From: Mesostigma viride
Lineage: Eukaryota > Streptophyta > Mesostigmatophyceae > Mesostigmatales > Mesostigmataceae
Length of the DNA stretch: 64,000 nt
NCBI GenBank assembly: GCA_009746045.1
Contig: RPFO01000026.1
Location: forward strand, 1,403,515-1,467,514
Direction: 5' to 3'
A program made the translations under genes and the position numbers. How positions within the stretch are numbered: position 1 is the first letter of the stretch; every line of letters starts with the position of its first letter. Below, piece after piece: positions 5,117 to 64,000 of the stretch. Under the pieces are notes generated by a model that did not search any database, was not told the origin of the DNA, and was given only the letters and a program-made list of their open reading frames with translations.

Positions 5117-7576
5117 CCGGTGATACCTGCCGCATGGGCGGGCACGACCGCCCGCGTTGTGATTCAGCCTTCTTATGGATGCAGCTGGCGTGATTGTCCA
5201 TTTATGCCATCCGGCGCGTCCGTGTGACGTCGCTGAATAGCTCCAGTCTCCGCTCAATAGCTCAGTAGCTTGCAGCGCCGGCGCATCACGCCACATGGGT
5301 GCACATGATCGCCAGCTCGTGATTGGCAAGCAGGTGTGATCGTCAGGCACCGGCAACGGGCAGCGAATTGTGTTCGTTACTTTGCTGGGGACTGGCAGCT
5401 GACACGATTGTCAAATATTACAGGTGACAAGCGTATGGCATGATGGCAGCATGAGGGGGAGCCCCACGGCTGAAAGCGACCTGCATGGCTGTACGTTGTT
5501 CTAATGTGGCTGGCCTTGGTTCCACATTTGGCTGTGGTTCCATGCATGCCATCCTTTCAGGGCCCACTTACGGCCTCAACATTTGCTCCGGCATGACCCG
5601 GCTTACGTCCCTGGATGACCTTTCGGTTGTGGCGTGTTGGACGAGCTGTGATGACGCATTTTCTTTTAGGTGGCACGGGTGCTTTTAGGTGCCTTTTTCT
5701 TTTAGGTGGCACGGGTGATGTTGTGGGCACTGTGATGGCCCATTGTACGCACCATTGCTAAATCTGCTGACAGTGGGATCAGCTTGTTAGGTTGCAGGAT
5801 AACCGGCTGCTGGAGTGGGCAGAAAGGACGGGCGGTTCTTGTTGGAATTCAGCAAACGCCGTCCTGGTTGGGAATGTCATCAAGGTGAGGGCAATGCAGA
5901 AATGGGACGGCTGGTTTTTGGAGGCGAGAGTAGGGATGGAGCCATGCACCCGATCACAGCAGTGTTCAGAGGTAGAAGTCTTCCACTGCTGTGCAGCAAT
6001 TGACTGGTGTTCATTGATGCATGGCAGCAGTGCGCCTTGGATTATTGTATCTGTTTGCTACCTTGGATTATAAACTTGGTTGTGTTGAACTGAACTATTG
6101 GGACAAATCACGGATTGTGCCAGCTGGAGTGCTGACGTTAGAGGGTTCTAGCTTGTGTTTGTTTTCACTTTCGATTTCGTTTTCGGTCGGTTGTTTATCG
6201 TTATGTCAGATGTCAGATGTTCAGGATCAGTTTTTAAAAGTAACGGGATTACGGGAAATAACGGTCATTTTTTTCAGGTTTTTCGCCTTTGTTTCGGCCA
6301 TAATGTGACTTTTTCAATTTCGCCCTTGATTTCTGGGTACGTGGCAAGTGCTGAAGGCATATGAAGAGGCAGATGCCAACGCAAGATCAGTTGTCGTTCG
6401 AAGGCTCGAAGCCCGTACGTCACGTGCGGTAAGCCTGTTGCAATTTTCGACCCCCGACCCGTTTGTTGGCGACCCGGGCCGTTGTCGCTAACATGTCATT
6501 ATGTCATCTCCTCTGACAGACGGTCATCAATAAGAAAATCTCAAGGAGACAACCAGCGCAGGCCAGAAATCGGGAGAATCCTGACCATACATGGTAGCTC
6601 GAGCCTGCCGTTATAACCCATGGCCCCGAACTCCTCCGAGACAAAGGGCACCACGTACCCGGTGGTGCCCGATGTTGCCATAGCCCGTGAGCTTGGCCCG
6701 CTCAGCCCGATCGATCCGACACGCCGAGTAGCCCGCGCCGCCTGGGATGCACCAACCACATGGCTAACTTCCAGCGTGCATAGCACGCGCAGCCTGCATT
6801 AGATGCACCAACCACATGGCTAAGAGCCATGCAAGGGGCAAGCCAAAGAAACGTCAATGAGTGCATGCAAGTGCCGGCCACCTCCCTCAAAGTCCAGAAC
6901 CACGATGTCAGGTCGGTGGTTGGGGGAGTACTTATAAAGCCGCGCCGTCCGCATCCTCAGACTGGATGTTCGCGGGGGGGGGAAACATACGGACCGGACC
7001 ATGGCGAGCACCAACGTCAGGAGGACCGTGTGCAAGTACAAGTACCAATTCTGACAAGTTGGCCACCCATGCGCATGACAGGTAGGGGGTCCCACCCAGG
7101 CCTGCCCACAGCTACCACACTGAGGTCCGCCCTGTGGGAACAAGAGGTTGCGGGGCAAACAGTTGGTGTCGCAGTGCCAGTGCGCCACCGGAAAGTGACT
7201 GGGCGCCAGCTAGGACAAATGGGGGGGCCATAGGGAGAGCGCGGAGGTAACCCGAGCCCACACTCCGCAACGAGAGTGAGAACAGCCACGCACGACCCTG
7301 GGCATTGAGGTCATCAGAAAGAGCCATGGATCCAATCCGCCGTCATTGTGCAGAATGCCCGCGCGTAGGTTTTCTGGTGTTTATATCGATGGCGTGGGCA
7401 GGGAATGCTGCGGGGCCGGGATACCTAGTACGGTGGCAACCGAGCTAGGAGTGCCCTGAGGAAGGCGGCGTATATGTTGGGCAGCGGCCTGCTCAAGCGG
7501 TGCGGATGGTAGTGCAGGCCTGCTGGATCTCAGCATAACTCATATGGATCCTGGATGGCGGTGATGAAAGGGTAGG
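5117..7576. other. Long intergenic stretch after ARPC5; no gene recognised
   Basis: No frame here resembles a known family. At 5207-5228 there is a near copy of the last codons of ARPC5 (CATCCGGCxCGTCCGTxTGA), followed by further degenerate duplications. Other short direct repeats are a 'TTTCTTTTAGGTGGCACGGG' word twice near 5658-5720 and GATGCACCAACCACATGGCTAA twice at about 6746-6767 and 6801-6822. A dispersed repeat lies at 6530-6612. The 3' UTR and polyadenylation site of ARPC5 must lie in the first few hundred bases but are not evident. Confidence 0.45.
6530..6612 (-). repeat. Dispersed repeat, copy 1 (unknown family)
   Basis: Read on the minus strand this contains CAGGCTCGAGCTACCATG, GATTCTCCCGATTTCTGGCC and TGCGCTGGTTGTCTCCTTGA. 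The same block recurs at 10160-10240, 20115-20190 and 59780-59850, so it is an interspersed element. It could be a SINE, but no complete pol III promoter is visible. Confidence 0.6.
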
Positions 7577-9990: not shown

Positions 9991-10700
9991 GTGTGTCGCA
10001 CCTGGAGGTATGACTGCATGCTCACTTCGATCTACCGACCATGCAAGTAGTCAGTCATATATGCAGTACTTTATATGCACTAAACACATTTTACTCCGCA
10101 CCGCGCGATCTATTATATACCTCTTATTATAGACAGTTGTCTCATAAAACAAGCAAGATTGCATGAGCAGGCTCGAGCTACCATGGTCCGGATTCTCCCG
10201 ATTTCTGCATGGCCTGCGCTGGTTGTCTCCTTGATGAGATTGCATGATATTTAAAAATCACAAGTTGCTTGAACATGTTGTGGTATAGCACTTGAAGCTT
10301 ACCTCGAAGTATACACCCTGTTACTGATATAGATGGTTCTATATAGCTAGCTCAGTCAATGGTCTTTTCTTTCGTCTTCACTTTCACTTTGTCAATCAAT
10401 GTTAGAACATATGCTAGGAGCGTACCTTTTCTACTAATTCTACTTTGTTTTCTGTCTAGCAATATTTAATTTGCATTTTCCAGCAGCCTCCTACATACTC
10501 TCAACGTCGCTTCCCAGCTCTACCGGTCGGGATGCCTCCACACACCTTTGGTAACCCTTGTTAACATGCATCTTTGGGCTGCATGCTCCCTCTTCGTCAC
10601 TTCTACTTGTAAGTAAGTTCTCACACCTCACACACTAGGCCTGTTTTTTTTTTTGTGTGTGTGTGTTGTCATGTTGTTGTTGTTGTCATGTTGTACGTCG
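9991..10700. other. Intergenic DNA with dispersed repeat copy 2; no gene
   Basis: AT-rich sequence. 10160-10240 is a plus-strand copy of the dispersed repeat (GGCTCGAGCTACCATGGTCC ... GGTTGTCTCCTTGAT). The remaining part shows no coding frame of interest and leads into the GGT array through TGTTGTTGTTG sequence. Confidence 0.5.
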
Positions 10701-13719: not shown

Positions 13720-16700
13720 ATGGGGTCAGACAACAAGGAACGACACCAGGAGCTGGTGCCTTTGACGCTTGGGCAGCCTTCCTCTACGAAAGCGCCGGGG
13801 AAGGCCAGGCAGATAACTTCTGTGAGGATTATGGGGATGACATGCGGCGCTTGCAGCACTAGTGTCGAGAATGCGCTAAAAGCTGTTCCTGGAGTGCACG
13901 CGGCATCTGTCTCGCTGATTCAGAACCAAGCAAGCATCACGTATGATCCCAGCGTTGCCAGTGTAAGCAGGGCTGTCTTGCTTTGCCAGTCATGCCGGGT
14001 TGTAAAAGGATAGCTCTCGCCACCCTTACGCAGTATTACTGAGTGCACATCTACATGGCTGCAATAATAGAGTTGCTGTTTGCTTCCCGGCGCCTCGCTG
14101 AGCGTGCCATGGCACTCGGGGCTTATTAATCAGGAGATGCAGCCACGCGTATTCCGCATGGTATAGTTGAAGCGGATGGAATATTTAAATCATCCGAAAG
14201 AAGCTCCCCTTGGATGTTGGCTGCACGTGCAGTCTATTAGCGCCGTTTGCACGTTGGTTAGGGTCACCCTGCGTCACAGTCCCTTGAATGCAGCACGGCC
14301 GACCCCATACCAACGTCTGGCCAGGGCACACTAATCACTTCGGCTGCATGTGGCAGTTGCTCTTGCTGAAGGGGCTCGTGAATGCGTAGTAGGTTGTGCT
14401 AGAACGGGCTTTTGTGGGGGGTAGAGGTAACGGACATGCACTGCGGGCTACGCTTTCCTTTGCATCATTTCCCTATTTGTTCATGTTTCTTACTTATCTA
14501 TGCCATGTTGCTTTATGTATGGAATCTCCTGGCAATCTTCAGACAGCTTGGCATTGTGCACACAGCGTTGCCAACAGTATTGTTGACACTCACCGGTGCT
14601 TTTGTGATGCCGTCGGGCTAGCTGTACCTAAAATGGATCACCCCTTTGATGGCTACCTGCTGCTGATGGAAGGAAGGTCCTATCCACCCCCCTCTCCTGG
14701 CATCTTATTTGGGCAGTCTGTGTCATACGCTTTGAAGGTAAGTGGCCTGCTGCTGTTTTCTTTCAACCGTGGAATGCTCAGCATAACTTTGCGAGTTATC
14801 CTGCTCTTCCTATCTATGCTGCAAATACTGGCTTCAATTTCTATTTCATTTTCTCTCTATTCCTGAACTATGCAAGGTACCCCGTCTCTTTCTATCTATG
14901 CTGCAAATACTGGCTTCAATTTCTGTTTCATTTTCTCTCTATTCCTGAACTTGTTTTCCACTTTTGTTTTTGTAGTTTTCTCGTCAGTACCGTCCATTGG
15001 GGCCACCCATCATAACGGATATGCCCACGACCGCCTGAAATAGTAATGCCCACTGCCTAAAGAAGCATTGCCCGCCTGACATAGCCAATGTCCGCCGCCG
15101 CCTACTACACTAATTGTGGCCACACCTGATATACTATGGTAATGCCTCCCACCGCCTCATATTCACCGACCCATCTCACACCCTGCCGCCTTACACGTAC
15201 TAATTCACGCCTCCGCCACACTAACCTTGACGCTCCACTTACATCGACTTTCATAAACATACAATATATTTTCAATGCATATTAACTCTGTCATATATTC
15301 TCAATTAATTTAATACTCACGCCTGCCCCCCACCAGGATGCCACCCTGCTAGAGGCGATTGAGGACTCTGGTTTTGAGGCCGAGGTGCTCCCCGGTGGGG
15401 GCTCGTGCGTCTACCACACGCTCGAGGTGGGCAGCTTCAGCGTGCCCGGGCTGTCGTCGGGCCATGACGCGCGCATGCTGGCGGACGCGGCGCGCCAGCT
15501 GGCGGGCGTGTTCTCGGTGACGGCATTTCCCGAGGCAGAGAAAGTGGAGATGGAGTTTGACCCTCAGGTAAGGTCGCTCTTTATAGTGAACTTGTAGTAA
15601 GATCTGCTGATGGTGTGGTTAGTGGCACAGAGAGTGGAGATGGGGTTTTGCCCGCAGGTAAGGCCGTTTGTTCGAGTTTGAAAGATGCCCTTGTGGGGGT
15701 GGTGGGAGGGAGAAAGTGGAGATATAGTTGTCTCACTTTTGGTGCCTCCCCCCCCCCGGTCACCAACATGCTTTTTTCCCTTACGTACAGGCAGCTGTCT
15801 GTCTCAGTTAATGCCTATCAAATGCTACCCCCCTTTCCCCCTTTCCCCCCTTCCCCAACCTGGACCACTAGGCCAACCCATGGCCACGGCATACGTATGG
15901 TTTTCTCACTCAATGCGTATAAAGAACTCTCTTCCCAGTCCCCCCCAACACAAGACGACACGATGCGACGCGACGCAGCACAGCACAGCACAGCACAGCA
16001 CAGCACAGCACAGCACAGCACAGCACAGCACAGCACAGCACAGCACAGCACAGCACAGCACAGCACAGCACAGCACAGCACAGCACAGCACAGCACAGCA
16101 CAGCACAGCACAGCACAGCACAGCACAGCACAGCACAGCACAGCACAGCACAGCACAGCACAGCACAGCACAGCACAGCACAATCCAGCGCAACACAACA
16201 CAATGCAGCACAATCCCCAGGTCCCCAACGACCACGGCATACATGTGGATGTCTCACTTGATGCCTATTGACCTCTTGATGCCTATTGAAAACTCTCCTC
16301 CCTCCCCCCCCCCCCCCGCACCACCACCACCACCCCCTCCCGCCAGGTGACGGATGGCCACGGCATCGTCGCGACGATGGAGTCGATGGGTTTTGAGCTG
16401 GAGCTGCTCACCCACAGCGCCCAAGAGGTGACCACGCTGCTCGTGTCCGGCATGACGTGCGCATCCTGCACCTCCAGCGTGGAGCAGGCCATCCGAGGAA
16501 TACAAGGGGTGCTCTCGGTGGACGTCAGCCTGATGACGGAGCAGGTATACGTCGTGATCATGAATGTGGTCAGGTGTTCGCTATTACGAATGTGGTCAGG
16601 TGTTCGCTATTACGAATGTGGTCAGGTGTTCAATATCATGAATGTGGTCAGGTGTTTGCTATTACGAATGTGGTCAGGTGTTCAATATCATGAATGTGGT

Positions 16701-19700
16701 CAGGTGTTTGCTATTATGAAGGTGGTCAGGTGTTCGCTAGTGTGAATGTGGTCAAGTGTTTACTATTACGAATGTGGTCAGGTGTTCAATATCATGAATG
16801 TGGTCAGGTGTTCGCTATTATGAATGTGGTCAGGTGTTTGCTAGTGTGAATGTGGTCTGGTGTGCACTAGTGTGAATGTGGTCAGGTGTTCGCTAGTGTG
16901 AATGTGGTCAGGTGTTCACTAAAAGGCACAGCACTTGAGTGCTCCGCGAATGTCTGCCTGACGATTGAGCACGTAGGGTCCATTGACAACCTTGTCAGTA
17001 TAAACATACTAGTTTGTAATAACAGGCATGTGCGAAGCCTGCGGCGGCGTCCATGTCCATGTGGACGAACCTGCAGCTAGATCAGGTATTTTTCGTGGCT
17101 TGTTTTACTACTTTATGCTCGTTTTGCTAATATTTTCGGTGAGGCAATGTGTGCCCCTCATTGCACCTGTTGCGCATTCCTCGCCCATGTAAGACTACCT
17201 CAGCGCCTTATTGGGATCCATCACCCCTTATTTCCCATTGTATTGCCCCTATACTACGGGCCTCTTTGCCCCGCCCCCCACCCCCCCACCCCCACCCCTG
17301 TGTACCTGTATTGTGCGCTTATTCCCCCTATTACACACACCCTGGTCTCGTCCCCCCCCGGCCCTGCCCGCTCCTGGCCCCTCAACCTTCTCGCCCTTCA
17401 TCCCCCCGGCCTACACCCCTCAACCCCGCCGCAGCGACTTTACCCCCCCTCTTCCTGACCCTGCAACGTCTTTGCCCCTCAACTTCCTGACTCCGCAACG
17501 TCTTTGCCCCCCAACTTCCTGGCCCCGCAGGCGGTGATTCGTTTCAACCCCAACGTGACCGGCCCCCGGTCGCTCATCCAGGCGGTGTCAGACGCCGGCT
17601 TCACTGCGCGGCTGTACCTGGAGGATGAGCGCACGTTGGGGCCGGCGGCCAGCTCCCACCTGCAGGAGATGCAGCGCTGGCGGTCACTCACCATCATGAG
17701 TGCACTATACACGGTGTGTGGGTGCGCGGTGATCTTTGGGCCTTGACTGGGGTGGTGGTGTATTGTTGAGGCTTAAGTTTAGGTGCATTGCGTGTGTGCT
17801 AGCTGGAGCGGCCTCCAGCTCCCCAACCCGCGGGAGATGCAGTTCTGGCGGTGACTCACGCCCCCACAAGTGCTCTCTGGATAGTGGGGTATCGGGAGTA
17901 GGTTAAGTTCCGCATGAAGTTGCCTTCACAAGCAAGTCGAACGAGTTGAACATAAGATAGCGCAGCTTGCTGATGAGTTTCAGGCTGTGAGTAGCACGTG
18001 GAGTCGTGGACGTCCGACACAAGAACGGCATTGGCGTGAAAAGGACTGGGGAAGCAAATGCGGGGCGGAGGCTTCACTGTTCTTTTTTTGGGGGGGGGGG
18101 TGGAAGGGGGGGGGGAGAGATTACTGGGTAGGAGGGGGGTCAGCCGGGGGGGTAACCCAATGTTGTAGGTGTCTGCAAATGCTGCACTCTTTGCTCTCTC
18201 GCCTACAGCTTGCAAGCTATAGGTGCAAGCTTCACAACTGTCTTGAATCCCGTACGCTTGTGTTTGTGTCCTGTGAGCTCAGTAGCCCCAAAGTCAGGTG
18301 CGTTTAGTTGAACAAAGAAACTCCCCCCCTTTCAATTATACCTCCTGGGCTTGAGCTTTTGACGTGTTCTTAGGACATCATTTTTGTGTCACTCTTGGCT
18401 GATTTTCGGCCTAATGATTGCTCTCTTTGCCCGAGCCACCCCACAAAGATCCCCCCACGGGTCTGCCCTTTGCCTAGCAGCCACTCCCACCCAATTTGGT
18501 CCCCATACTTACTCGCATCCCTTCCGGCACCTCTTCCGTGCCCCGGTATGCCCCTCCTCCTCCCCCCGCCCCCCCCCTCCAGGCGCCCCTCTTCCTGATC
18601 GCCATGGTTCTCCCCCACATCCCCGGCCTCTGCGCCCTCCTTGAGTACAAGCTCTGGATGGTCGGGCTCGGTGACCTGTTCAAGTGGGCGCTCTCCACCC
18701 ACGTTCAGTTTGTCGTCGGCTGGCGCTTCTACGTCGGCGCCGTCAAGTCGCTGTCCCACGGCGCCGCCAACATGGATGTGCTGGTTGCGCTGGGAACAAA
18801 CGCGTCCTATTTCTACTCGGTCTTCTCGGTGCTCTATGGGGCTATCTATCCGGACTACCACGGCACCGATTTCTTCGAGACGTGAGTGTTTGGGTGGATG
18901 CGGGTGGGGTAGATTGACCACCTGGCTGGCTGGTTTTGACTGCCGGTTATTTAGGTGGGGTTATCTCGGCTGAGAGACCACCTGACTGCCTGATTTGTTC
19001 GAGACATGAGTGGGCTCTAGAAGCTGGGGACATGGGTTATGTAGGTAGGGTTATTTAGGCTGAGAGACCATGTAGCTGCCTGATTTGTTCGAGGCGCGAG
19101 TGGGTTAGAGAGACTTCATTGTCAGTGGGCTTGAGAGGCCTGATTATGTCAAGATGTGAGCCTTTGGATGGACCATGTGACTGCTTGAGCCTTAACAGTA
19201 CGCTTTTAAAAGTACACCTATTACGTAGACCTGTGTAGGTTAGGGAGGCTTGTGTTATTCCCTTATTATTTTAAGACTTGAGTGGGTTAGGACTTGCATA
19301 TGTGACATGAGCTTGTCTAGTGTGTCTTGATAGTGTCTAGTGCTGGGATCCATCCAGGATACCACCGTGGGATATCAGCAGTCTGTACCCTGCCCTTGCG
19401 TCCATCACAAGCTGCCACAGAGTCTTCTTCGGTTTGAGGTATCCCTCTGTGCTTATTCTATCACCTCCCCCATGCCCTGTCCCTGCCCCACTCATTTCAC
19501 CCCATGGCTGTTTTCAACCTTCAGGTGTCATCCGGCTTCCTGCCCCCTTCCCTGCCCCCTTTGCTGCCCTCCTCCCTACCCCCCTCCCTTCCCCCCTCGC
19601 TGCCCCCTTTGCTGCCCTCATGCCTACCCCCTTCCCTGCCCTCCTCCCCGCCCCCTTCCCTGCCCTCATTGAAAATGCCTGCCCACCTTCAGCTTTGCGA

Positions 19701-22700
19701 TGCTGATCACATTTGTCCTGCTCGCCGCTCCCTACCCCTTTCCCTTCCCTCTTCCCTGCCCCCTTTCCTCAATGGAACAGTTTCCTGTTAGCTGGGCAAT
19801 GCTGATAACGGTCGTCCTGCCTCCTTCCCCCTTCCCTACCCCTTTTGATTGCCCTGTTTCCTTGTCGGCATATTCTCTGGTATTTCCTTCTAAATGGTGG
19901 GAGAGCGATTGCAGCAATGGTGCTCACCACTAGACACTCCCAGCCAGTTAGGCTCGAAACACACGCCCTGATCACGCAAGATGTTTCCGGCCCCACCATC
20001 TAGGTCATCTAGTTGCTCTTAGCGTTCGCAAGCCATGATTTCAACGAACAAGCCTACACATTTCCATCTCCATTCATATCCATCATCATGAACGACTTGA
20101 AAACGCGGATAAGAGAATGGCAGGCTCGAGCTACCTTGGTCCGGATTCTCCAGATTTATGGCCTTCTCTGGTTGTCTCATTGATATCCCTTCAGCTCTCT
20201 CTGATGCTGATCGCGTTCATCCTGCTTCCTCCCCCCTATCCTGCCCCTTTCGCTGCCCTATTTCCTTATCGACACATCCCTTCAGCTCGGCGATGCTGAT
20301 CACGTTCATCCTGCTGGGCAAGTGCCTCGAGTGCCTGGCCAAGCATAAGACGAGCGAGGCCATCTCGAAGCTGATGCAGTTGGTGCCACCGTCCGCCACG
20401 CTCATCACGGTCGACGTGGATGGCAACGTGGTCACCGAGGAGGAGATCGACTCCACACTGGTGCAGCGGGGGGACCTGCTCAAGGTAGGACGAGAACGGC
20501 TCATAGAATAGCAATCTGGGTCGTTGGCGTGGGTAGTGTGGCAATGTGTTGATGGAGGAGGAGATGGACTCCACGCTGGTGCAGCAGGCGGACCTGCTCG
20601 AGGTAGGAGGAGAACGGTTCATAGAATAGCAACCGCGGTGGGGTGTTGTTGGTGTGGGTGCTTTTAAACCTGGGTAACGGAGGAGGAGATGGACTCCTAG
20701 GTCTAAGATACAGGGTATGAACGTACATAGTGAGAGTACGGGCACGGGTGGGTGCGTAAATACGTTAGGTACGTGATGCGGAGGAGATCGGATGCACGCT
20801 GGTGCAGAGGCGGGACCTGCGCAAGGTATCAAGCCGATGGGCCGAGGGGCGGTAGCATTAGGTGGGAACAAGTCCCGTGACGCCTGCCCGGCTCTGACGT
20901 GTTTTATCGAGCACCTCCTCAATAGCTATATCGTATAGCATAGCTGCGACGAGCGCTGTCTAAGTGTGCTTGTCCCAGCTGTGCTAACTTCAATGGTTGC
21001 CCTGGAGCCTCCATGCTGGCTGCTTCTCCCCCTCTCCGCCCCCTCCCCCCCCTCTCTTTGATCATGCCGGGCACCGGAATGTTCGCCTAACTGACGTATT
21101 CATGCCACCCAGCTCCGCCCGCCCGGCCGCCCCTTGTTGTTTGCCTCCCCCCCATCCCCCCAAAAATCCTACCAGGCCCTCTACCAGGCCCTCTATGGAT
21201 GCTACTACTGAAATAAGTCATGGTTTCCCCTCCGCCATAAGTCATGCTGATTGCCTGACCCCCACACCAGATCCTTCCCGGCGATGCTGCGGTGTTGCAT
21301 CTACTACGCCTTTGGCCCCCCACGCTGCGTCTCGGGGTCTGCCTCTCCCCCCCCCTACCTCCCTTTATTCCTACATGACGCAAAGAGACATTTCAGTCAT
21401 AAGTAATAGCAATGCCTTTATTGATACTACTGGCCCTTTTATTTACACTACTGGCCCTCCTTTATTCCTACATGACGCAAAGAGACATTTCAGTCATAAG
21501 TAATAGCAATGCCTTTATTTATACTACTGGCCCTTTTATTTACACTACTGGCCCTCCTTTATTCCTACATGACGCAAAGAGACATTTCAGTCATAAGTAA
21601 TAGCAATGCCTTTATTAATACTACTGGCCCTTTTATTTACACTACTGGCCCTCCTTTATTCCTACATGACGCAAAGAGACATTTCAGTCATAAGTAATAG
21701 CAATGCCTTTATTTATACTACTGGCCCTTTTGTTTACACTACTGGTCCTCCTTTATTCCTACATGACGCAAAGAGACATTTGAGTCATAAGTAATAGCAA
21801 TGTCTTTATTGATACTACTGGCCCTTTTATTTACACTACTGGCCCTCCTTGTGCCTCCCCTTCGTGTTTGCCTCCTCTTCCCTCCCCCCCCCCCCCCCCC
21901 CCCCCTTTTTTCTAAATCCTGCCCGGTGCCAAGATGTTTTCTTGGCTACTTGGTGCTTGCCATGCTCTATTTTTACTGCTGGAACCCGCCCCAAATATGG
22001 ACCCCAGATCCTACCCGGCGCCAAGATCCCGGCGGATGGGACCGTTGAATGGGGCCACTCGTACGTCGACGAGTCGATGCTCACCGGCGAGAGCGTCCCC
22101 GTGGGCAAGCGGCCCAAGGACCGCGTCATCGGCGGCACGGTGAACACCACGGGCATGCTGCACGTGAAAGCAGAGCATGTGGGCAGTGACACGGCGCTGT
22201 CGCACATCGTGAGGCTCGTGGAGGCGGCGCAGATGAACAAGGCGCCGATCCAGGGGTTTGCCGACAAGATCTCCAGCTGGTACGTGCTGGGTGGGCCCGC
22301 ATGCGTGTATCCTTTTTCTTGTTAGAAGCAGCGTTGCAGGGTCGCTGGGTGTTGGAGAGGCATTTTATTGAGCCAAGCACCGACAAGGTCTCCAGCGCGT
22401 GCGGGGTTCATGGTCCTGCTTACGTGTGTATTGCTATCTGTTACGCGGCTATATCGCTATCGTTTGCGTGGCTGTATCGCTATCGTTTACGCGGCTATAT
22501 CGCTATCGTTTACGTGGCTATGTCGCTATCGTTTACGTGGATATATCGCTATCGTTTACGTGGCTATGTCGCTATCGTTTACGTGGATATATCGCTATCG
22601 TTTACGTGGCTATATGGCTATCGTTTACGTGGCTGTATCGCTATCGTTTACGTGGCTGTATCGGTCTCATTGGTGTCAGTGCAGGGAAATAAGCACCTGA

Positions 22701-25700
22701 CTTTGATGCCATCTCCAGCTGGTACATGGTTGCAGGCCTGGTGATGGTTATTTTAAAAGAGCGTTTCGACCGTACAGGCACTGACACGATGTCCAGCTGG
22801 TGCATGGTACATGGTTTTTGTATCCATATTTTATGATTACCACTACATATCATATAACTAGAATATTACGACCACGATCGCAGCGGTTCCTAGTGAACAT
22901 GTAAAAACGGGTGGTCCCTGGCGCACTTGATGCATCGAGCATATTATTACTACCATTAGTTTAGCTACCTTTGCTATCGGATAAGCACCAACACGATCTC
23001 TCTAGCGGGTGCATTATGACCTAAGGCCCAGCTATGTGTTTAGGTGCGGTCCGTGAATAATATGCGCTACTTGGGCGGTTCCTTGTAAGTCTTGGCACAA
23101 ACAGCACCCCCAGCAGTGCCTTTTCCCTCCCTCGGCACGCTTTCCGCCATTTCCCCCCGACTTTTCACCCCCTCCTTTACCCCCCTCCCCCTCGCCCCAT
23201 CCCCCTCCATGTCCCCCCCCCCCCCCTTTCCCCCCTTCTCCTCCCCCTCTCCCCTCCCTGAAACCCTTCCCCCCTCCAAAACCTTTCTTCCCCTCCCTCG
23301 TCCAAATCCCCCCCCCCCCCAAACCCCAGGTTTGTCCCCGCGGTCGTCGTGCTGGCGTTCTTCACCTGGCTTGTCTGGTACATCTGCGGCCGCATGCGCA
23401 TGTACCCGGCCTCGTGGCTGCCGGAGCACACGGACGACTTCCTGCTGGCGCTCCTGTTCGGCATCGCCGTGTTGGTGATCGCGTGCCCGTGCGCGCTGGG
23501 CCTGGCCACGCCCACCGCGGTCATGGTGGGCACGGGGGTGGGCGCGATGCAGGGGATTCTGATCAAGGGAGGGGACGCGCTGGAGCGCACGTACAAGGTG
23601 GGTGGTGGTCCATGGTCCGTGGAGGGCAGGGTCTACATGGGAAGGCGGTGGTGGTCCACGTTGGTTGCGGTCAAGGTGGGCGGCGGGCTGCTTACATGGG
23701 AATAAGGCACGGTGGATTAGGGCGGCATGCAGGAGTTCTTAGTCAAGGGAGGGGACGCGAGGGAACGCACGTACCAAGTTGGGTGGTCGATGCTCCGTCG
23801 GGGGCAAGGTGGGCGGCTTTTCTCCTACGAAACCAGCTCTTGATGCGGATCCCAACAACAGCCGCGCCAACATCTTGCAACGTCACCAACAACTGCAACG
23901 GCACCGACATCCCGCAACGTCTGTGATGTTTCACGATGACAGCAGCACCTCCTAGCAAGACTTTGACATCTCGTGATTTTACTGTTGTAAGTAACATACT
24001 GTTATAATAATGTACTTCTAGTAGAAGTACCATTTGCTAACAGCATGGAAATGCCCCTTTCTCTCCGGTGGCTGGTCCTTCTGGCCTTGGTCACATATCC
24101 TCTGGTCCCGCAGATCTCATGCGGCGTGTTGGACGAATATGTATGGTTTGTAATGTTACCCACTCGACAGCACAGACGAACTCAGGGGGTTGGACTGTGA
24201 AAGTCTTGGCTGAAACGTTCCACTTCTCTCGTGGCAACGCGCGCAGGTCTCGTGCGTCGTATTTGACAAGACGGGCACGCTCACGCAGGGGCGGCCCGAG
24301 GTCACCTCCCACAAGCTGGTGCACGCCTCGCTCAAGATGAACGACGTGCTGCCGCTGGTCGCCGCGGCGGAGGTAGGAGGACCGCCACTCGTAGCGTACT
24401 GCTCTACATATCGGCGCTAGCCAGCATTTAGTTTACCATTACCATTTAGTTTGCTGCTTGCCTTGACGATATGTATAGTCGTGTAGGAGCACTCAAATAC
24501 CAGCTCAAGCGCCACACGGTGACGCTGTTGATGTCGTGGCAGAAGGGCATGCAGCTGCTGGTGGCCGCGGCAGAGGTTATGTGGTCGCGCTGCCAGCCAG
24601 ATTGTCATGGCCAAAGATGCCGGCTTGCTTACCCGGGTGGGATATCATAAGCATGCGGGTGCCCAGTGCCAGCCTACCTACTCCCACCAACCTTGATGGT
24701 GATAGCAGCATGCGAGAGCCCTGTGCCAGCCTACCTACTCCCACCTACATTTTGCGGTGAGCAAATGGCCCCCCATGGTAGTTGTCCCGTCTGAGGTGCG
24801 TGGCGGATCTAAACTAGCAGCTGTGGTTCAAAGCGTCGATCATCGAGAAGATAAATCTAAGACAAGAGATAAATTCTGTGAGTTTCAAAACGCGGTAATG
24901 GAATCTTAATCATAACTGTTTATCTAATTCACTTTGGGAGACCCATGGACCTATTTTCCTACTCATTTGCGCGAATATGCTTTCCTCATGTGGCGCTTGA
25001 TAGACTTTGGCTTGGCTTTTTGGCTTTGGCTTCGGCTTTGGCTTTTCGGCTTTGGCTGCTTTGCTTGGCCTTTTTGGCTTTGGCTTTGGCTTTGGCTTTT
25101 TGGCTTTTTGGCTTTGGCTGCTTTGCTTGGGCTTTTTGGTTTTGGCTTTGGCTTTGGCTTTGGCTTTTCGGCTTTGGCTTTTTGGCTTTGGCTGCTTTGC
25201 TTGGGCTTTTTGGTTTTGGCTTTGGCTTTGCACATGCATCTCAGGAAACACTATGCAGTAGTTAATTGCAATGTTCTGTGATGTGTTAGTTTCAACGCTT
25301 GGGCTTTTTGGTGTTGGCTTTGGCTTTGCACATGCATTTCAGGAAACACTATGTAGTAGTAAATTGCAATGTTCTCAGGATACACTATGTAGTAGTAAAT
25401 TGCAATGGTCTGTGATGTGTTAGTTTCAACGTTCTGTGATGTGTGCCTCTTGACCGCCACGCTTCCCGGATGAGTGCTAGTGGGCAGTCTCCATCCGTTG
25501 TTTTGTCTATTGGGCAGCCGTGTGGCGGCGGCGCCACTTTCCCCAAACCTCCCCCCTCTAACCGCCTCCCCCCCATCCTCCCCCTCTTTAACCGCCTCCC
25601 CTCCCCCCCCCCCCCCCCCGCGCCCGGGTATGCGGACGATTGGGCCCCACCAGGCGTGCAGCGAACACCCACTGGCCCAAGCCATCATGTCATTCGCGCG

Positions 25701-28700
25701 GCTGCAAGTATTGGGACCCAGCGAGGGCAGCCAGTCCAGCCACCGGGGTGGTTCGGGCCAAGGTGCGGAGTGGGGGGCCTACTGTCAATTTCCCATAGCT
25801 TGCAATAGGGAGGTTTGCCGGATGCTCGTGTTTCCACTACTACATCAGTTTTGCATATTTTCTATTGATTTCCCGTTGCCACGTTCCTTGCCGCGTTCCT
25901 TTGGTTGTGAAAGGTGCCACCTGAGACTTGTTACTAGGTGTACGTACCGCCCTCTGAAACGGCCGAAACTGGTACGCTGCCACGATTCAAGCGCAGGACC
26001 TCTGGCAGACGTTCCGCTACTGCATGGGTCTCTCGATCCAAAGGCATCCCAAACCTCTGCCTGTTGCCAATCGTCTGCATGCTCATGCCCATCTCAATGT
26101 TTGGCTCGGTCAGTTGTATGCCTTCTTTGTTGATCGTATGATCCGATGAGCGCTTTTCTTGAGCTGCGCTGTGTACTCGGTTGACAAAATTGGACATTTC
26201 CCTGACACCCCTCCACCCTACTACCTTGCGACCCTGCAACGCCCTGCACCCCCGACACCCCCTGGCTACACCCCGCTAATCCCGCACAGGCAGCAGTAAC
26301 CGCGCCAACGGTGCCACTCCACCCCCCGCAGGCACCACCACCAACAAGCCCTCCCCATCCAGCAACCCCACCTCCCAAGCCACCGGTGGGAGCAACCGAG
26401 GCAAGCCAGGCGGCGGGGCAGGCAAATCCGGGGTCGGGGGAGGAAGCGCCCACGGCAGTGTGGCCAGCCAAGATGTGTCGTGGTACCCTCGTGCTGAGGA
26501 GGTCGTGGTGGAGACGGGCAAGGGCATCCGCTGCCGCGTGAACGGGGCCAGAGTGTTGGTGGGCAACCGGATTCTGCTCGTCGAGAATGGGATCCCGGTC
26601 CCGCCAGAGGCCGAGCATTTCCTGACCGACGTGAGTCCAGGCATGGCTAGTCACTACACCCTAGACCTTGTACCCTAGACCTCATACCCTAGACCTCATT
26701 CCCTAGACCTTGTACCCTAGACCTTATACCCTAGACATTATACCCTAGACATTATACCCTAGACCATATACCCTGGACCTTTTACCCTAGACCTCCTATC
26801 CTAGACCTCATACCCTACACCCCAGAGCACGAAATGGGATATCTGTCTAGGATGCCGAGCACTCTATAACCAACGTGAGTATATGCGCGCTACAGGTAAG
26901 ACCTGGTCTTCAGACCTAGGCAGTGGATGGTAGCATTATAGTCGGGGCACCTTGAACCAGCGTGAGTATAGAACATGCTGGAATCTAGACTGTTGGCTGT
27001 TTCAATTCACTTCCTTGACCCCGCCCTTTTCCCCACAATTTCCCCATGCCCCCCCCCCCCCCGCCGCCCTCCTCGTACCCCCAGGTCGAAAGCCGTGCGC
27101 ACAAATTACCTCGCCAATCTAACCTTCCCGTATATTCTTCATGCCGCCAACTTTTGTCCACCATTCTTCTTTGTCCTCAATTCCTCCCCCCCCGCCCCAG
27201 GCCGAGAGCCGCGCACGCACGGGCGTGCTTGTTGCCATCGATGGCACTGTCGCTCTGGTGCTGGCGGTGTCGGACCCGCTCAAACCGGAGGCCGCGATGG
27301 TGGTGGCCGCGCTGCACCAGATGCGCATCACGGTCTTCCTTGTCACGGGGGACAACAAGCGCACCGCGGCCGCGATTGCAGAGGAGGTGAGGGGCTTTCT
27401 TACGCGAGGATCCAAAGAGGAGGTGGGGGAGGTTCATGCTGAGGAGGGGCATCTTCTACGTGGCCGACACTGCTGTTCTGTAACATGCTACTCCGATGCC
27501 CGAAGTCTATCTATCTGAAGTCTATCTGTGCAATGTCTCGACCCAACCGCCAGCCCAGGGGGCATCTTCAATGTGGCTGCCATCCTGCTACCTGACATTC
27601 TACCCCTAGTGTTTTGAATCTATCTGTACATGATTATTCACTAGACACTTCGGCTTCTTCCATAGGCCTCCGACCAACCCCCGGTGACATCTTCAATGTG
27701 GCGGCCATTGTGTCACCTAATACTCTGTTCCTAGTGTTGGAATCCATGTTGTGTCACCTAGCACTCTGCTCCTAGTATTGCAACCCATGTGTAATTTTGT
27801 ACCTGCACCCGCCCCCAGGTGCGCATTTTCAACGTGGCGGCCCATGTGTCACCTAACCATGTGTTCCTAGTGTTGGAATCCCTGTGTGATGAATTGAATC
27901 CATGTGTTCGTACCTGCACCCGCCCCCAGGTTGGCATCTTCAACGTGGCGGCCGAGGTCCTCCCCGCCGGCAAGGCCCAAAAGGTGAAGGAGCTCCAAAG
28001 CGACGGCTTTGTGGTGGCCATGGTGGGAGATGGCGTGAACGACTCGCCCGCGCTGGCGGCCGCGGATGTGGGCATGGCGCTCGGGGCGGGGACTGATATC
28101 GCGATGGAGGTAGGCTATATTGTAATTGTAGTATAGAACAAGAGGCCAAAAAGCGATATGAGTGGGTAAGTGTTATTTCTCAAACATGGGCATCACGATG
28201 GAGGTGGGTTCTTTATTATATAGAGCAACAGGCCAAACACAGCGCTAGGATGCGTTATTTCTTATACATGGGCATAACGATGGAGGTGGGTTCTTCTTAT
28301 ATAGAACAACAGGCCAAACATGGCGAGAGGATGCATTATTTCTTATAGTAGTGCATGAGCATCGCGATGGAGGTGGGGTGCTCTGCATCAAATGACAGGC
28401 TGGCATAGCGATTTGGATGGGCCATTCCCTTAGTCATAATTTTGTCATTCCCTTATCATGGACCCACATGGCGATGGAGTCGGTTAACATATAGAATGGA
28501 CATGAAGCGAATCAAGTGGTGTTTTCTATTTATTAGTTGGATTGACACTGTGAAAGACGTGGGTTATATTTAGACTGGGAGTATATGGATGGGTCGGCAT
28601 GGGTAAGGAAAGGGGTTGGCGTTTATAGACCAACATAGCATCTCCTGCCCCCTGTCTCCTGCCCCTTGTTCCCTGCCCCCTTTCCCTGCCCACCTTCCCC

Positions 28701-29069
28701 CTGCCCCCCGCCTCGTATCCCCCCCATCCCCCCCCGGTGCAGGCGGCGGATTTCGTGCTCATGCGCAGCAACCTGGAGGATGTGATCACCGCGATCGACC
28801 TCTCCCGCAAAACCTTCCTCCGCATCTGCCTCAACTACATCTGGGCGCTCGGCTACAACGTGCTCTCCATCCCGATCGCCGCCGGCTTGCTCTACCCATC
28901 ACTCCGCTTCCGGCTGCCCCCATGGGTTGCTGGCCTGGCCATGGCCTTCTCTAGCGTCTCCGTCGTGTGCTCCTCCCTATTGCTGCGCTATTACCAGCGG
29001 CCCACATTCCCAAGTTCGGTCCCCCGGAGGCCCGAGGTGCCTACCAGACGGGGGAGTGACAGTGTGTGA
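13720..29069 (+). CDS. HMA7: P1B-type copper-transporting ATPase, RAN1/HMA7-like, 14 exons, 1053 aa
   Basis: Exons: 13720..13962, 15337..15567, 16347..16544, 17531..17713, 18583..18881, 20286..20484, 22008..22279, 23330..23597, 24247..24372, 25654..25762, 26290..26630, 27201..27386, 27930..28109, 28743..29069. All junctions are GT-AG and in phase (3162 nt). Order of parts: metal-binding domain 1 (GMTCGAC, Cys42/45), a second domain without cysteines (82-158), domain 3 (GMTCASC, Cys196/199), membrane helices, TGES actuator loop (477-480), CPC metal site in the membrane (594-596), phosphorylation site DKTGT (Asp638), SEHP (His678), ATP-binding domain with a Gly/Ser/Asn-rich linker (about 695-745), TGDN (872-875), GDGVND (918-923) and two final helices. 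The enzyme pumps Cu(I) out of the cytosol, in plants and yeast into the Golgi/secretory route. [19 protein letters not shown] and LSRKTF closely resemble plant RAN1. Introns are swollen by minisatellites and by copies of exon edges. Substrate and orthology are inferred from motifs. Confidence 0.95.
15976..16182 (+). repeat. (CAGCA)n pentanucleotide array in ATPase intron 2
   Basis: About 41 nearly perfect copies, decaying at the right end to CAATCCAGCG and CAACACAACA. It is open in several frames on both strands but lies between two well-defined exons and is not coding. Confidence 0.95.
16552..16925 (+). repeat. 26-bp minisatellite in ATPase intron 3, about 14 copies
   Basis: The unit is approximately GAATGTGGTCAGGTGTTCGC followed by TATTAC or TAGTGT, with variants CAATATCAT and TTTGCTATT. 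It starts directly after the exon 3 donor (16545). Confidence 0.9.
17809..17878 (+). repeat. Decayed intronic copy of the exon 4 3' end
   Basis: It shares CCAGCTCCC, GGAGATGCAG, CTGGCGGT and ACTCAC with the end of exon 4 (17649-17713), about 80% identical by eye over about 55 bp, and lies 96 bases past the real donor. The frame is broken, so it is not an exon. Confidence 0.75.
18990..19290 (+). repeat. Four decayed copies of the exon 5 donor edge
   Basis: The real edge TTCTTCGAGACGTGAGTG (18870-18887) recurs as TTTGTTCGAGACATGAGTGG at 18994, TTTGTTCGAGGCGCGAGTGG at 19084, ATGTCAAGATGTGAG near 19145 and TTTTAAGACTTGAGTGGG near 19269. Surrounding CTGACTGCCTGA words are also repeated. Confidence 0.7.
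19686..20230 (+). repeat. Three decayed copies of the exon 6 acceptor edge, plus a dispersed repeat
   Basis: The real edge (20281 onward) reads TTCAG then CTCGGCGATGCTGATCACG. Copies lie at 19688-19725, 19788-19822 and 20190-20230, each with GCTGATMRCRxTxxTCCTGC. Between them 19895-20190 carries interspersed sequence also found at 56700-56840 (GCAGCAATGGTGCTCA-CACTAG) and at 59710-59850 (GGCTCGAGCTACC). Confidence 0.7.
20540..20830 (+). repeat. Three decayed copies of the exon 6 donor edge
   Basis: Exon 6 ends with GAGGAGGAGATCGACTCC ... CTGCTCAAG then GTAGGACGAGAACGG. The block is repeated at 20540-20632 (donor kept: CTCGAG/GTAGGAGGAGAACGG), in part at 20670-20700, and at 20775-20830 (CGCAAG/GTATC). 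The first copy still has an intact-looking GT donor. Confidence 0.8.
21365..21850 (+). repeat. 97-bp tandem repeat in ATPase intron 6, 5 copies
   Basis: Near-identical 97-bp units containing TTTATTCCTACATGACGCAA, AGAGACATTTCAGTCATAAG and TACTACTGGCCC. Starts of equivalent words are at 21412, 21509, 21606, 21703 and 21800. Each unit is open in one frame, which produces overlapping 62-residue ORFs that are not genes. The few base differences (GATACT, TATACT, AATACT) show recent amplification. Confidence 0.93.
22430..22668 (+). repeat. 22-24-bp minisatellite in ATPase intron 7, about 10 copies
   Basis: Units of the type CTATCGTTTACGTGGCTATATCG. It follows the first decayed copy of the exon 7 donor edge. 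Confidence 0.9.
23721..23820 (+). repeat. Decayed copy of the exon 8 donor edge with a lost GT
   Basis: It aligns over about 95 bp with the last 60 bases of exon 8 and the first 35 of intron 8 (ATGCAGG, AAGGGAGGGGACGCG, CGCACGTAC). The donor AAG/GTGGGTGG has become AAG/TTGGGTGG, so the copy cannot splice normally. Confidence 0.85.
24997..25335 (+). repeat. (TTGGCT)n-type hexanucleotide array in ATPase intron 9
   Basis: Degenerate TTTGGC/TTTTGG/CTGCTT repeats, open in all frames (Lys/Ala or Gly/Leu/Phe-rich). A partial unit with GCACATGCATxTCAGGAAAC recurs at 25227 and 25327. It is intronic and not coding. Confidence 0.9.
26650..26822 (+). repeat. 14-15-bp minisatellite in ATPase intron 11
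   Basis: About 12 copies of TACCCTAGACCTCAT variants begin directly after the exon 11 donor. They resemble telomere repeats only superficially. Confidence 0.9.
27552..27850 (+). repeat. Three decayed copies of the exon 13 acceptor edge
   Basis: The real exon starts CCCCCAG/GTTGGCATCTTCAACGTGG (27923 onward). Copies lie near 27558 (GGCATCTTCAATGTGGCTG), 27687 (GACATCTTCAATGTGGCGG) and 27812 (CGCCCCCAG/GTGCGCATTTTC), at a spacing of about 120-130 bp. The third has an intact AG and an open frame. Confidence 0.85.
28178..28485 (+). repeat. Four decayed copies of the exon 13 donor edge
   Basis: The real edge is ATCGCGATGGAG/GTAGGC. Copies: ATCACGATGGAG/GTGGG near 28190, ATAACGATGGAG/GTGGG near 28270, ATCGCGATGGAG/GTGGGG near 28360 and ATGGCGATGGAG/TCGG near 28470. 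Three keep a GT. Confidence 0.8.
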
Positions 29070-42261: not shown

Positions 42262-42303
42262 GGTAGTGGAACGGGACTGTTTAGAGGCTGTCTCCGAAGC
42301 CTG

Positions 42304-54440: not shown

Positions 54441-54585
54441 GCTCGTGGCTCGTCTCACGGAATATGTGCCACCATTCCTGCCACGAACCCAGTTGCTGCC
54501 GGCACCAGACGACTTGTGCGACCCCAAACAATCGGTGGAGGGCATGCACGGAGCCCTAGCAATTGAACCCAGCTCCAACCTTTAA

Positions 54586-61489: not shown

Positions 61490-64000
61490 CTACACCATGC
61501 GACTTCTCTCCGGGGGCAACGCGGTAGAACCTTCTCGTATGGCCGCAGCGGACGCTGGCACACTCTCCTCCCGTGCAGCTCGTCCCTCGTCCCGATCAAG
61601 TGTCAGGGAGTGGGAGGAATGACCCCCCCGTGCCTCCTGCATGAGGCGTAAGGCTCGACGCGCCTTCCAGCCGCGCACCCTGGCAGGCATGGGCACGATG
61701 CCAAAACAAAGGATGGTTGGCGAGGTCAGCATACCGGCTTACTATGGTAGTTGATAGGGTACTTGGTGGTGGGGCCAGGCGTATTAGGGTAGTTGGTGTG
61801 AGACCAGGCTCTCATAGGGTAGTTGGTGGTGGGACCAGGCTTAACATAGTAGTCCATCGGGTGAGTGAGCAAAAAGCATGCTCAGACAACAGCACGCCAC
61901 GTTAAAAAAAGTCTGCTAGCATGCTGGAAGTTCCGTGCGCGAAATGCCTGACCCCCAACCCTATCTCCCCCCCCTCCCCCGCCACTTCCTCCCCCAAATC
62001 CCCTCATCCCATCCTGGGAGAAGACGGGCTCAGTATAGTAGTGACTAAACTCGAATGATCGTGACTGCTTACGATCCGTGATTCAGGATCTATAGTGCCA
62101 CCCAGCCCCCCCCCCCCCCCCTCCCCCTCCCTGGTGGGCAAAAACACTGGCGTCGTCGTCATGCGGGCGACAGAATTTAATATCGCATTGACTGCATGTG
62201 CATGGATGACTGCCTGCATGCGCATTGTCTGCGTGCCCGTGAACAAAACATTTTCATCGCCTCCACGTGGATGCCAACGATGGCGTCATAGGTGAGCAGA
62301 TGAGCGACCCACGCAGAGCATGCGTATGCAGCTGCCTGAAACCACTCCTGTTGACTAAGTGCTGAAACCGCCACAAACTGACGAACTGCTGAAAGCGCGC
62401 ACATTGCCTATACGGCGAAACCGACCGCATTGCTATGCGGCGAAACCGATCCCATTGGGGATCCTGTCAATCCTGTCTTTGCCGCATGGATGAAGAAAGA
62501 TACTCAGATCGTCTGAACGCAGATAACACATACACTCCCATTGCCTGGATGCAAAAATGACACTCTCACCCACATTGTCTGAATGCAAGAGTGGCAAACC
62601 CACCCGCGTTGTCTAGACACAGCCGACTAGAAACTTTCAATGTCTGTACAAGGTTGAAGCGAAGAACTCACATGGTCTGAATGCGGATGATCGCGACCAC
62701 CTTCCAGAGCGGCTGCAGGCTGTTGCGCTGAATCTTCTTCAACCCAGGGAACACCTTGAAGCTCTGCCGTCGCAGCCGATGCTCCAGCCTGGCTGGCAGC
62801 GGCGCGCCACACACCCGGAACGCCAGCGCGTGTAACAGCTGCAAGTAATGAATCCTCCCATCGGCCTGAACCTCCACGTCAAGCTGAGCCAGATACGCCA
62901 TGCTCGCACGCCGCAAGGACGCGCAGGGCGTCCCACGGGCGCTCCGCGCGTAGCCCGTTCGGAGCAGCCGGTCCAGGTTAGAGAAGGCACGACCCGAGGT
63001 GACCGCTGCCAGATGGTACAAGGCGGTCTTGAGCCGGTCCCGCATGCTGACATGTTTCTTGGCGGAATGCGCCGGGGTGGTCGGGGTGGTGGGGGATAGA
63101 GGCGAGAGGGGGGATAGCGGGGAGAGGGTCACTCCGTGGTGGCTGTTGGGAGACGAGAGCCCGCCCACCGAGCTGAGAGGGCTAAATGGGCTGCCAGGCG
63201 TGCTGACCCCGCTGTCTTGTCGGTACAAGCGGGACCGCCGACGGGACAGGTGACGTTTTGCAGGGGGTTCTGCGAGGCCTAGCGGGGCGCCGAGCTCAGC
63301 CAGCAGGCTCACGGCATCCTGGCCGCTGATGAGGAGGGTCCCGTACGGGTCGTATTTCTCCCACAGGTGTGTGAATTCGGAGAAGTGGGAGTGCGTGAGC
63401 ACGCCCACGTTCACGGTGGCAATCTCGCTGAAATGGTCGAGGATGACGGCGATGATGAGGTTGAGGAGGATGAAGTAGACTGGGGGTGGTGGGGAACAGG
63501 AGTTGTTGCAATGCATGGGCAGGGGGCGGGTGTGGTAGGGAAGACTAGGTGTTAGAGTGGCAGAGGATGGCGACGATGATGAGGTTGAGGATGAGTAGAC
63601 TGGTGGTGGTGGTGGGGTGGGGCTGGGGGAGGACGAGGGGTTGCAATGCAGGGGCGGGGTGGGGGAGTGGAGTGTTTGTGTGTGGGGTTAGAGGAGGGAC
63701 GGGGAAGAGGGTAAGAAATTGAACAGGGAAAGGGCAAGGATCACCTTTGGACCTTTGGACCAGAAAACAAGAAACGGAGACGGGTTCTCGACGTGTTGAT
63801 CGTAGGGTCTGGGGGCATGGAGGATGGAGAGCAGTTGGTTCATAATCCAATCTTGCGAAGCCGAAAGAAAGGAGTGACTTTGGTGCCGAGGATTGGGGTG
63901 GTCAAAGGACAGAGGCAGCAAGGGGAGGGCATGTGCATGTGCGTGCATCGCCATGGGTACAAGCCAAGGGGTCGTGGAGAGCACTGGCGACTTACCCTAG
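61490..64000 (-). CDS. Voltage-gated-type cation channel, C-terminal exons (partial, runs off right edge)
   Basis: Exons on the minus strand: 64000..63996 (last 5 bases), 63877..63753, 63479..62672 and 61679..61490 (TAG). All joins are GT-AG and in phase, 1128 nt with stop. The second ends in 'FLVFWSK', which joins 'VYFILLNLIIAVILDHF', the S6 helix of the last repeat. There follows 'SEFTHLWEKYDPYGTLLIS', the EF-like region found after S6 in four-domain calcium and sodium channels. Next is a Ser/Pro-rich linker, then 'LWKVVAIIRIQTM' joined to 'VRGWKARRALRLM'. The last junction creates a full IQ motif (IQTMVRGWKAR), a calmodulin site. The protein sits in the plasma or ciliary membrane; calcium selectivity is inference. 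The acceptor at 63877 is chosen because one at 63851 would place a stop at the junction. Intron edges carry decayed copies of exon ends. Confidence 0.85.
61735..61860 (+). repeat. About 40-bp minisatellite in the last intron of the channel gene, 3 copies
   Basis: Units with TAGGGTAGTTGGTGGTGGGA and CCAGGCT. No coding role. Confidence 0.7.
62490..62625 (-). repeat. Decayed copies of the channel exon donor edge
   Basis: The real edge on the minus strand is GCATTCAGACCAT/GTGAGTTC (62672). Copies further into the intron: GTGTCTAGACAACGCGGGTGGG near 62600-62620, GCATTCAGACAATGTGGGTGAG near 62570, GCATCCAGGCAATGGGAGTG near 62540, GCGTTCAGACGATCTGAGTA near 62505. Confidence 0.7.
63540..63605 (-). 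repeat. Decayed copy of the channel exon acceptor edge
   Basis: On the minus strand it reads CCACCAG/TCTACTCATCCTCAACC and continues with CTCATCATCG and CCATCCTC. The real exon starts CCCCCAG/TCTACTTCATCCTCC (63479). The copy has small deletions that break the frame. Confidence 0.85.

Follow-up and report, generated by a model that had tools for sequence, protein, structure and literature searches.

Serial, donor-biased copies of exon-intron junctions in the introns of Mesostigma viride

We analysed a 64,000-nucleotide stretch of Mesostigma viride DNA (contig RPFO01000026.1, positions 1,403,515 to 1,467,514; hereafter the window), which is part of a 440-Mb genome in 2243 contigs. This genome holds 33 matches to the chlorophyll-binding protein family, which points to a photosynthetic alga. 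The introns of a copper P1B-type ATPase gene in this window contain diverged copies of the edges of their neighbouring exons, many of them with the adjoining splice site. These junction copies are real, chance is excluded for the edges that pass a strict test, and the pattern is general among the genes that we sampled in this genome. Very probably, ongoing local tandem duplication, tolerated as long as the first-transcribed donor stays in use, has built up these series within the introns. The serial and donor-biased form of the pattern appears to be new, while tandem-duplication models of intron gain and repeat-rich intron ends in algae are already known.

Junction copies in the copper ATPase gene

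The exon borders of the ATPase gene were placed by hand from the reading frame and the GT-AG sites, as follows:

13720..29069, plus strand: copper P1B-type ATPase gene, 14 exons (open frame, GT-AG introns, Pfam and PDB match)
Exons 1-7, plus strand: 13720-13962, 15337-15567, 16347-16544, 17531-17713, 18583-18881, 20286-20484, 22008-22279
Exons 8-14, plus strand: 23330-23597, 24247-24372, 25654-25762, 26290-26630, 27201-27386, 27930-28109, 28743-29069

The joined exons give an open frame of 1053 amino acids, with GT-AG borders at all 13 introns. The product carries the Pfam domains HMA, E1-E2 ATPase and hydrolase, copper ATPases match it along most of its length, and its closest PDB match is the HMA4 copper ATPase 8q73, which we take to be the rice protein. 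Paralogue regions were found at loci L011-L015, and in viral contigs only distant ATPases were matched. At L011-L012 there is a second copper ATPase-like gene whose long unbroken tblastn segments point to apparently few introns, unlike the gene in the window.

In our strict test, the 60 exon letters at each of the 26 exon edges were compared with the adjoining intron, 200 dinucleotide shuffles of it and the 12 remaining introns, and an edge passed when its score was at least 24 and was reached by none of the 200 shuffles. Eleven edges passed, namely the donors of exons 2, 4, 6, 7, 8, 9 and 13 (7/13) and the acceptors of exons 3, 6, 7 and 13 (4/13); the score of donor 13 (24) is slightly under that of the best other intron (25). 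An earlier sequence-only reading had listed copies at 15 edges, and seven donors and three acceptors of that list pass. The donor of exon 5 stands only when intron letters are added, as 6/200 shuffles reach its exon-only score and the query, once extended to 80 exon letters plus 60 intron letters, scores 33 against a threshold of 25. The remaining listed edges are weak or absent: donor 11 scores 20 (reached by 16/200 shuffles; 28 against 26 with the longer query) and acceptor 9 also scores 20 (22/200 shuffles; 27 against 24), no copy of acceptor 12 was found with the 60 exon letters (53/200 shuffles reach its score), and at donor 3 (8/200 shuffles) the sole repeat is an intronic 26-bp minisatellite that starts about 13 bp into the intron. 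Donors 3 and 11 both adjoin intronic minisatellites of this kind, which start 13-17 bp inside the intron. Acceptor 3 passes without having been listed, and the proportions of passing edges show that the statement that nearly every junction is affected was too strong.

Similarity between exon edge and intron exceeds that to shuffles, unrelated introns and the reverse complement at the passing edges, and it is confined to the exon margins. When overlapping 40-bp exon tiles were binned by the distance of their near end from the exon edge, with a score of at least 26 counted as a match, tiles less than 20 bp from the edge matched the adjoining intron in 16/52 cases, other introns in 2/576 and the reverse complement in 0/52. 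For tiles at 20-50 bp the counts were 5/78 for the adjoining intron and 5/864 for other introns. Tiles more than 50 bp from the edge gave no match to the adjoining intron (0/354), with 2/354 for the reverse complement and 15/3934 for other introns, so that all adjoining-intron matches lie within 50 bp of an edge (21/130 against 0/354 deeper).

A BLAST comparison of the gene with itself, with low complexity masked, gave 45 direct and no inverted matches. Nine of the 45 involve an exon, each paired with the adjoining intron; among the other 36, 35 lie within one intron and one joins two introns. The proposal that copies lie only on the intron side is thus borne out (9/9, with 0/45 on the minus strand). 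The nearest copies lie about 40-200 bp away from their source, and, where a junction has several copies, the top score belongs to the copy closest to the exon in six of seven cases (P 0.011, post hoc test), in agreement with the suggestion that copies become progressively worse. No copies were found at the ends of the ATPase gene. A genome-wide search with 20500-20700, which holds the exon 6 edge copy, matched itself and 20421-20572 only, in a search that skips very common words. Among the direct repeat pairs of the window that are less than 1 kb apart, 41/47 start in the ATPase gene.

The copies are listed below, with identities from the alignment of 80 exon and 60 intron letters at each edge unless stated:

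15629..15666, plus strand: copy of the exon 2 donor edge (15539-15576), 32/38 identical, GT kept
15706..15729, plus strand: second, partial copy of the exon 2 edge, 22/26
17809..17859, plus strand: copy of the exon 4 edge (17643-17691), 42/51, alignment ending before the splice site
18976..19012, plus strand: copy of the exon 5 donor edge, 30/38, GT now AT, exon letters alone not significant
19082..19102, plus strand: second copy of the exon 5 donor edge, 18/21, GT now GC
19635..19722, plus strand: copy of the exon 6 acceptor edge, 66/91, AG kept
19731..19820, plus strand: copy of the exon 6 acceptor edge, 67/91, AG kept
20185..20225, plus strand: nearest copy of the exon 6 acceptor edge, 36/41, AG kept
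20555..20659, plus strand: nearest copy of the exon 6 donor edge, 88/105, offset 118 bp, GT kept
20780..20828, plus strand: farther copy of the exon 6 donor edge, 42/49, GT kept
21264..21283, plus strand: copy of the exon 7 acceptor edge, 18/20, AG kept
21916..21935, plus strand: copy of the exon 7 start, 18/20
22380..22427, plus strand: copy of the exon 7 donor edge, 38/52
22711..22728, plus strand: copy of the exon 7 donor edge, 17/18, GT kept
22783..22801, plus strand: copy of the exon 7 donor edge, 17/19, GT kept
23706..23810, plus strand: copy of the exon 8 donor edge (23529-23632), 86/109, GT now TT
24542..24577, plus strand: copy of the exon 9 donor edge, 29/36, GT kept
27448..27464, plus strand: short copy of the exon 13 start, 16/17
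27534..27581, plus strand: copy of the exon 13 acceptor edge, 41/52, AG kept
27678..27706, plus strand: copy of the exon 13 acceptor edge, 26/30, AG now CG
27777..27842, plus strand: nearest copy of the exon 13 acceptor edge, 56/66, AG kept; splicing here would lengthen the exon by 111 nt in frame, no stop
28192..28250, plus strand: nearest copy of the exon 13 donor edge, 49/66, GT kept
28278..28318, plus strand: copy of the exon 13 donor edge, 37/49, GT kept
28361..28377, plus strand: copy of the exon 13 donor edge, 16/17, GT kept

The same introns hold other repeats. Intron 6 contains a 97-bp tandem array of five units with a 97% match (window 21362-21850), a sign of recent duplication there too, and intron 2 a perfect CAGCA array of 41 units (window 15976-16182).

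Copies at exon edges of other genes

Two families, the CCT chaperonins and the kinesins, were picked for a survey without knowledge of their introns. The CCT search gave 58 exon matches, from which six of about 14 places were taken and 17 introns modelled, with profile gaps outside -16 to +12 excluded; the kinesin search gave 129 exon matches, from which eight loci were chosen for their compact exon runs, with gaps outside -16 to +20 excluded. Junctions were set by script. The first exon pair of L040 could not be resolved and is left out of the kinesin count, and the kinesin donors of L040 (the second) and L044, as well as the 718-bp intron of L041 (with an 18-residue misfit), are probably misplaced by some tens of bp. 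Copies were identified at 4/17 donors and 1/17 acceptors in the CCT loci and at 5/15 donors and 1/15 acceptors in the kinesin loci, which makes nine donors and two acceptors in 32 introns at 14 loci. The pattern is accordingly not special to one gene.

Further cases, spotted by eye or by a repeat scan, stand outside the survey counts. They include the duplications at L034 and L037/L038 described below and a channel gene in the window:

63563..63670, minus strand: voltage-gated cation channel gene, copy of an acceptor edge (63439-63535) in the intron upstream of it (alignment; PDB and Pfam match)

The exon letters of this acceptor copy alone score 49, whereas the highest of 300 shuffles reaches 33. 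A copied donor with a score of 44, given here with no shuffle comparison, lies upstream in L030 and, from its position and by eye, probably belongs to the same channel gene. An effect peculiar to the ATPase gene was ruled out by the copies in the channel, CCT and kinesin genes. A coding end is copied in an ARPC5-like gene:

5205..5228, plus strand: copy of the 3' coding end, stop codon included, of an ARPC5-like gene (Pfam P16-Arc) in its own 3' flank

This copy scores 33, whereas the highest of 300 shuffles reaches 28, and since it lies at a stop codon, splice sites are not required for copying.

Fresh duplications and a proposed mechanism

The freshest cases are on the same strand, local and contiguous, as expected from the recurrent tandem duplication across splice junctions that the sequence-only reading proposed. 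At a kinesin donor in L040, a 70-bp unit is doubled with zero mismatches and followed by a decayed third copy. At a donor in L037, with the junction set by eye, there is a 40-bp period in which 38 bp, 31 of them exonic and seven intronic, are identical; the duplication is also present, with one change, in the 96%-identical contig L038, and the two contigs are probably two haplotypes. At a CCT donor junction in L034, also set by eye, ten near-identical 48-bp units including the outermost (4474-4953) are open in frame, most of them with the donor GTGAGC and the outermost with GTGCGT. In the ATPase gene, the match between 20421-20572 and 20539-20697 at the exon 6 donor exceeds one whole unit. In a few fresh two-copy duplications, the match overruns the unit by 1-2 bp or ends 1-2 bp short, hinting, in a small number of cases, at little microhomology at the duplication ends. 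Head-to-tail units of about 10-100 bp, as in intronic minisatellites, occur in the L034 array (48 bp, ten units) and in the 26-bp and 23-bp arrays of the ATPase gene. An assembly artefact was ruled out, given that most ATPase junction copies differ by 10-25% from their source and that the 40-bp duplication is found in two contigs.

The two probable haplotypes differ elsewhere as well: one extra 43-bp unit is present in another intron, and an insertion of about 3.1 kb lies in one intron (L037, reverse complement, near 3436 against L038 3544-6669).

These observations can be joined in the following mechanism. Short local tandem duplications would arise often in the Mesostigma viride genome, and one that crosses a splice junction would place the exon edge and its splice site twice in tandem. 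At a donor, the upstream GT would stay in use and leave the mRNA the same, and the second copy, now intronic, would decay neutrally; repeated events would push older copies outward, producing a series that is freshest beside the exon. A duplicated acceptor would have its upstream AG transcribed first and often used, adding sequence and breaking the frame. Acceptor duplications would therefore be removed more often, and a donor bias would follow. We infer both this first-come-first-served reason for the bias and a step of breakage and repair that would make the duplications.

Donor bias

Two points go beyond the sequence-only reading: the donor bias, and the finding that roughly half of the repeat families lie inside introns, clear of both junctions. 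In the 45 introns of the ATPase, CCT and kinesin genes, copies are present at 16 donors and six acceptors (Fisher P 0.026; paired 13 vs 3, P 0.021). The same introns contain 43 repeat families, of which 17 touch a donor against 3.0 expected by random placement (0/4000 simulations), five touch an acceptor against 2.9 expected (P 0.15) and 21 touch neither junction. Restricted to matches of at least 90% identity, a cut that also lets in short pieces of old copies, there are 23 families, with eight at donors against 1.1 expected (0/4000) and three at acceptors against 1.0 (P 0.08). The survey genes alone, with 23 families, give nine at donors against 1.4 expected (0/4000) and two at acceptors against 1.3 (not significant), and in the ATPase alone eight of 20 families touch donors and three touch acceptors.

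It is possible, if doubtful, that these figures reflect a general turnover of tandem repeats that is blind to junctions, and that junction-spanning copies are merely easier to recognise because selection holds their exon copy. Direct repeats are indeed common genome-wide: in 20 stretches (one all N, two half N, one nearly all tandem repeat, and six taken from the neighbourhoods of the ATPase gene and the window rather than sampled), local repeats cover 29.8 kb in direct and 2.0 kb in inverted orientation, of 200 kb. The 21 families without junction contact and the copied stop-codon end also fit such turnover. What argues against it is the donor excess itself, at all identities and at 90% or more, as a recognition bias should affect acceptors equally, and yet these show no significant excess in either set. 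As a separate observation, local direct repeats cover 9733 bases of the 10-kb stretch L024.

The donor bias would, under local duplication with a tolerated second donor, be an outcome of selection, because a duplicated acceptor offers the wrong site first. A tentative and rather unlikely addition is that short tandem duplications arise preferentially at 5' splice sites, which would make these a mutational hotspot; breaks at exon ends linked to transcription or RNA could be one cause. If so, introns would grow directionally from their 5' ends, and earlier states of the exon edge would be preserved in them in layers, as in a fossil record.

Decay and fate of the copies

Decay was counted in 27 ATPase copies, leaving out alignments with fewer than eight exon letters and acceptor matches with short exon parts that fell below other introns. 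Mismatches between copy and exon fall most often on third codon positions (44/238, compared with 26/239 at each of the other two; P 0.019), as expected if the exon stayed coding under selection while the copy decayed. At 20/21 mapped inner ATPase sites, splicing would cause a frameshift or introduce stops, the exception being the acceptor at 27817, and GT or AG has been lost at 4/21. To judge from these sequences, the copies look to be decaying neutrally, without visible constraint, while newer ones push them away from the exon, and the frame and stops at the inner sites suggest that the outermost junction is the one in use.

It is unlikely that the copies are retained because they serve as decoy or alternative splice sites in the tuning of splicing. 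Such a role would account for the GT kept in 17 of the 19 donor-spanning copies of the ATPase, CCT and kinesin introns, and for an array such as that of L034, which is open in frame with ten donors. Nevertheless, identity in the donor nonamer (0.909) is not significantly above that elsewhere in the copy (0.871; P 0.22), and the lost sites, together with the damage that the protein would suffer at all but one of the mapped ATPase sites, speak against a maintained role.

Several results weigh against ongoing duplication with neutral decay. First, faster decay of the intronic part is expected and was not seen: exonic and intronic copy letters diverge alike (13.4% vs 15.0%, P 0.51), in local alignments that trim divergent ends. 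Second, the inner acceptor 27817 and the 48-bp array of L034 could be used in frame without stops. Third, the old ATPase copies mostly do not align over whole units, contiguity being seen in some. Fourth, no copies were found at 53/64 survey edges, nor at the four edges tested of the ARPC5-like gene (4/4). Finally, the survey edge test alone gives a modest donor bias (9/32 vs 2/32, P 0.043), and selection that holds the exon copy constant may keep old duplications visible and partly explain the donor excess, although it should act on acceptors alike.

Relation to known models of intron gain

That introns can be gained through tandem duplication is accepted (Rogers 1989; Hellsten et al. 2011; Gao and Lynch 2009, as cited in PMC3443670 and PMC4974935). 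In the Rogers-type model, as outlined in those sources, tandemly duplicated gene segments likewise carry surplus splice sites, one pair of which comes into use. There, however, a new intron is made from exon sequence, whereas the Mesostigma introns lengthen and keep the old junction. It is very unlikely that the introns described here were born by duplication of an exon segment containing AGGT. Several ATPase junctions do read AG|GT, and an intron stretch near window 27430-27470 resembles, by eye, the ends of exons 12 and 13 joined without an intron, either an older state or chance. However, the copies do not have the form of an exonic AGGT duplicate that supplies both sites; most well-aligned copies consist of exon edge and intron sequence past the splice site, and some of exon part only. 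Copies that carry intron sequence imply that the junction predates the duplication.

A parallel concerns the potato RdRp gene (PMC4974935), where a duplicated segment spans an existing intron-exon boundary and inherits its signals. Head-to-tail duplicates that span an existing boundary were likewise found in the ATPase gene and at L034, L037 and L040. The potato case is a single event, at an acceptor, from which a new intron arose, and the Mesostigma cases are serial, mostly at donors, in several genes and within existing introns. Fission yeast (Zhu and Niu 2013, via PMC4974935) also offers serial short tandem units with splice sites; in that account, several 24-bp exonic AGGT repeats gave rise to introns across two or four units in two genes, while the Mesostigma copies are of junctions. 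Among the novel introns of Drosophila (PMC2891723), tandem duplication supplies spare splice signals too, through exon-internal events with a proto-splice site that make a new intron (5/31 cases), and the portion of that paper compared describes no serial junction copies. In Chlamydomonas and Volvox, introns are the repeat-richest part of genes and tandem repeats lie near intron-exon junctions (PMC3887541). The likeness lies in tandem repeats within introns, towards their ends; units that combine an exon edge with its splice site, an excess at donors and an order of decay do not appear in what was compared of that report.

An origin from introner-like or transposed elements bearing splice sites is highly improbable. 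Introners are present in a share of eukaryote species (PMC9860276) and would appear as similar copies dispersed over many introns; here, exon edges match their own intron and rarely others, and the one junction stretch searched genome-wide matched nowhere else. For the tested junctions, a transposed origin was ruled out on these two grounds. Chance or low-complexity similarity is a negligible explanation. In its favour, C-rich tracts at acceptors resemble other introns as well, but the exon-only test, the shuffles, the other introns and the reverse complement all stand against it and rule it out at the passing edges.

No description of introns growing by serial, donor-biased copying of their junctions was found in the literature, as judged on titles and abstract openings, with most subscription papers outside the scope of the search. 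Intron lengthening and tolerance of duplicated splice sites have so far mostly been inferred from single events, and this one genome shows several stages, from a mismatch-free two-copy donor duplication through to a decayed series. The donor bias makes first-come-first-served splice-site choice directly testable. The copies may also preserve a trace of silent changes in the exon beside them, and gene finders that lean on exon similarity may be misled by intronic exon edges.

Other repeats in the window

A perfect GTG trinucleotide array of about 500 units occupies window 10700-12204. Open reading frames of a LINE-type (long interspersed nuclear element) retrotransposon, with endonuclease and reverse transcriptase domains, lie on the minus strand at window 38789-42303, and part of them matches 8158-9531. 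A repeat family of about 1.3-1.7 kb, about 74-80% identical and present in both orientations, is found at window 31573-33284, 50120-51817, 53143-54449 and 57319-58991.

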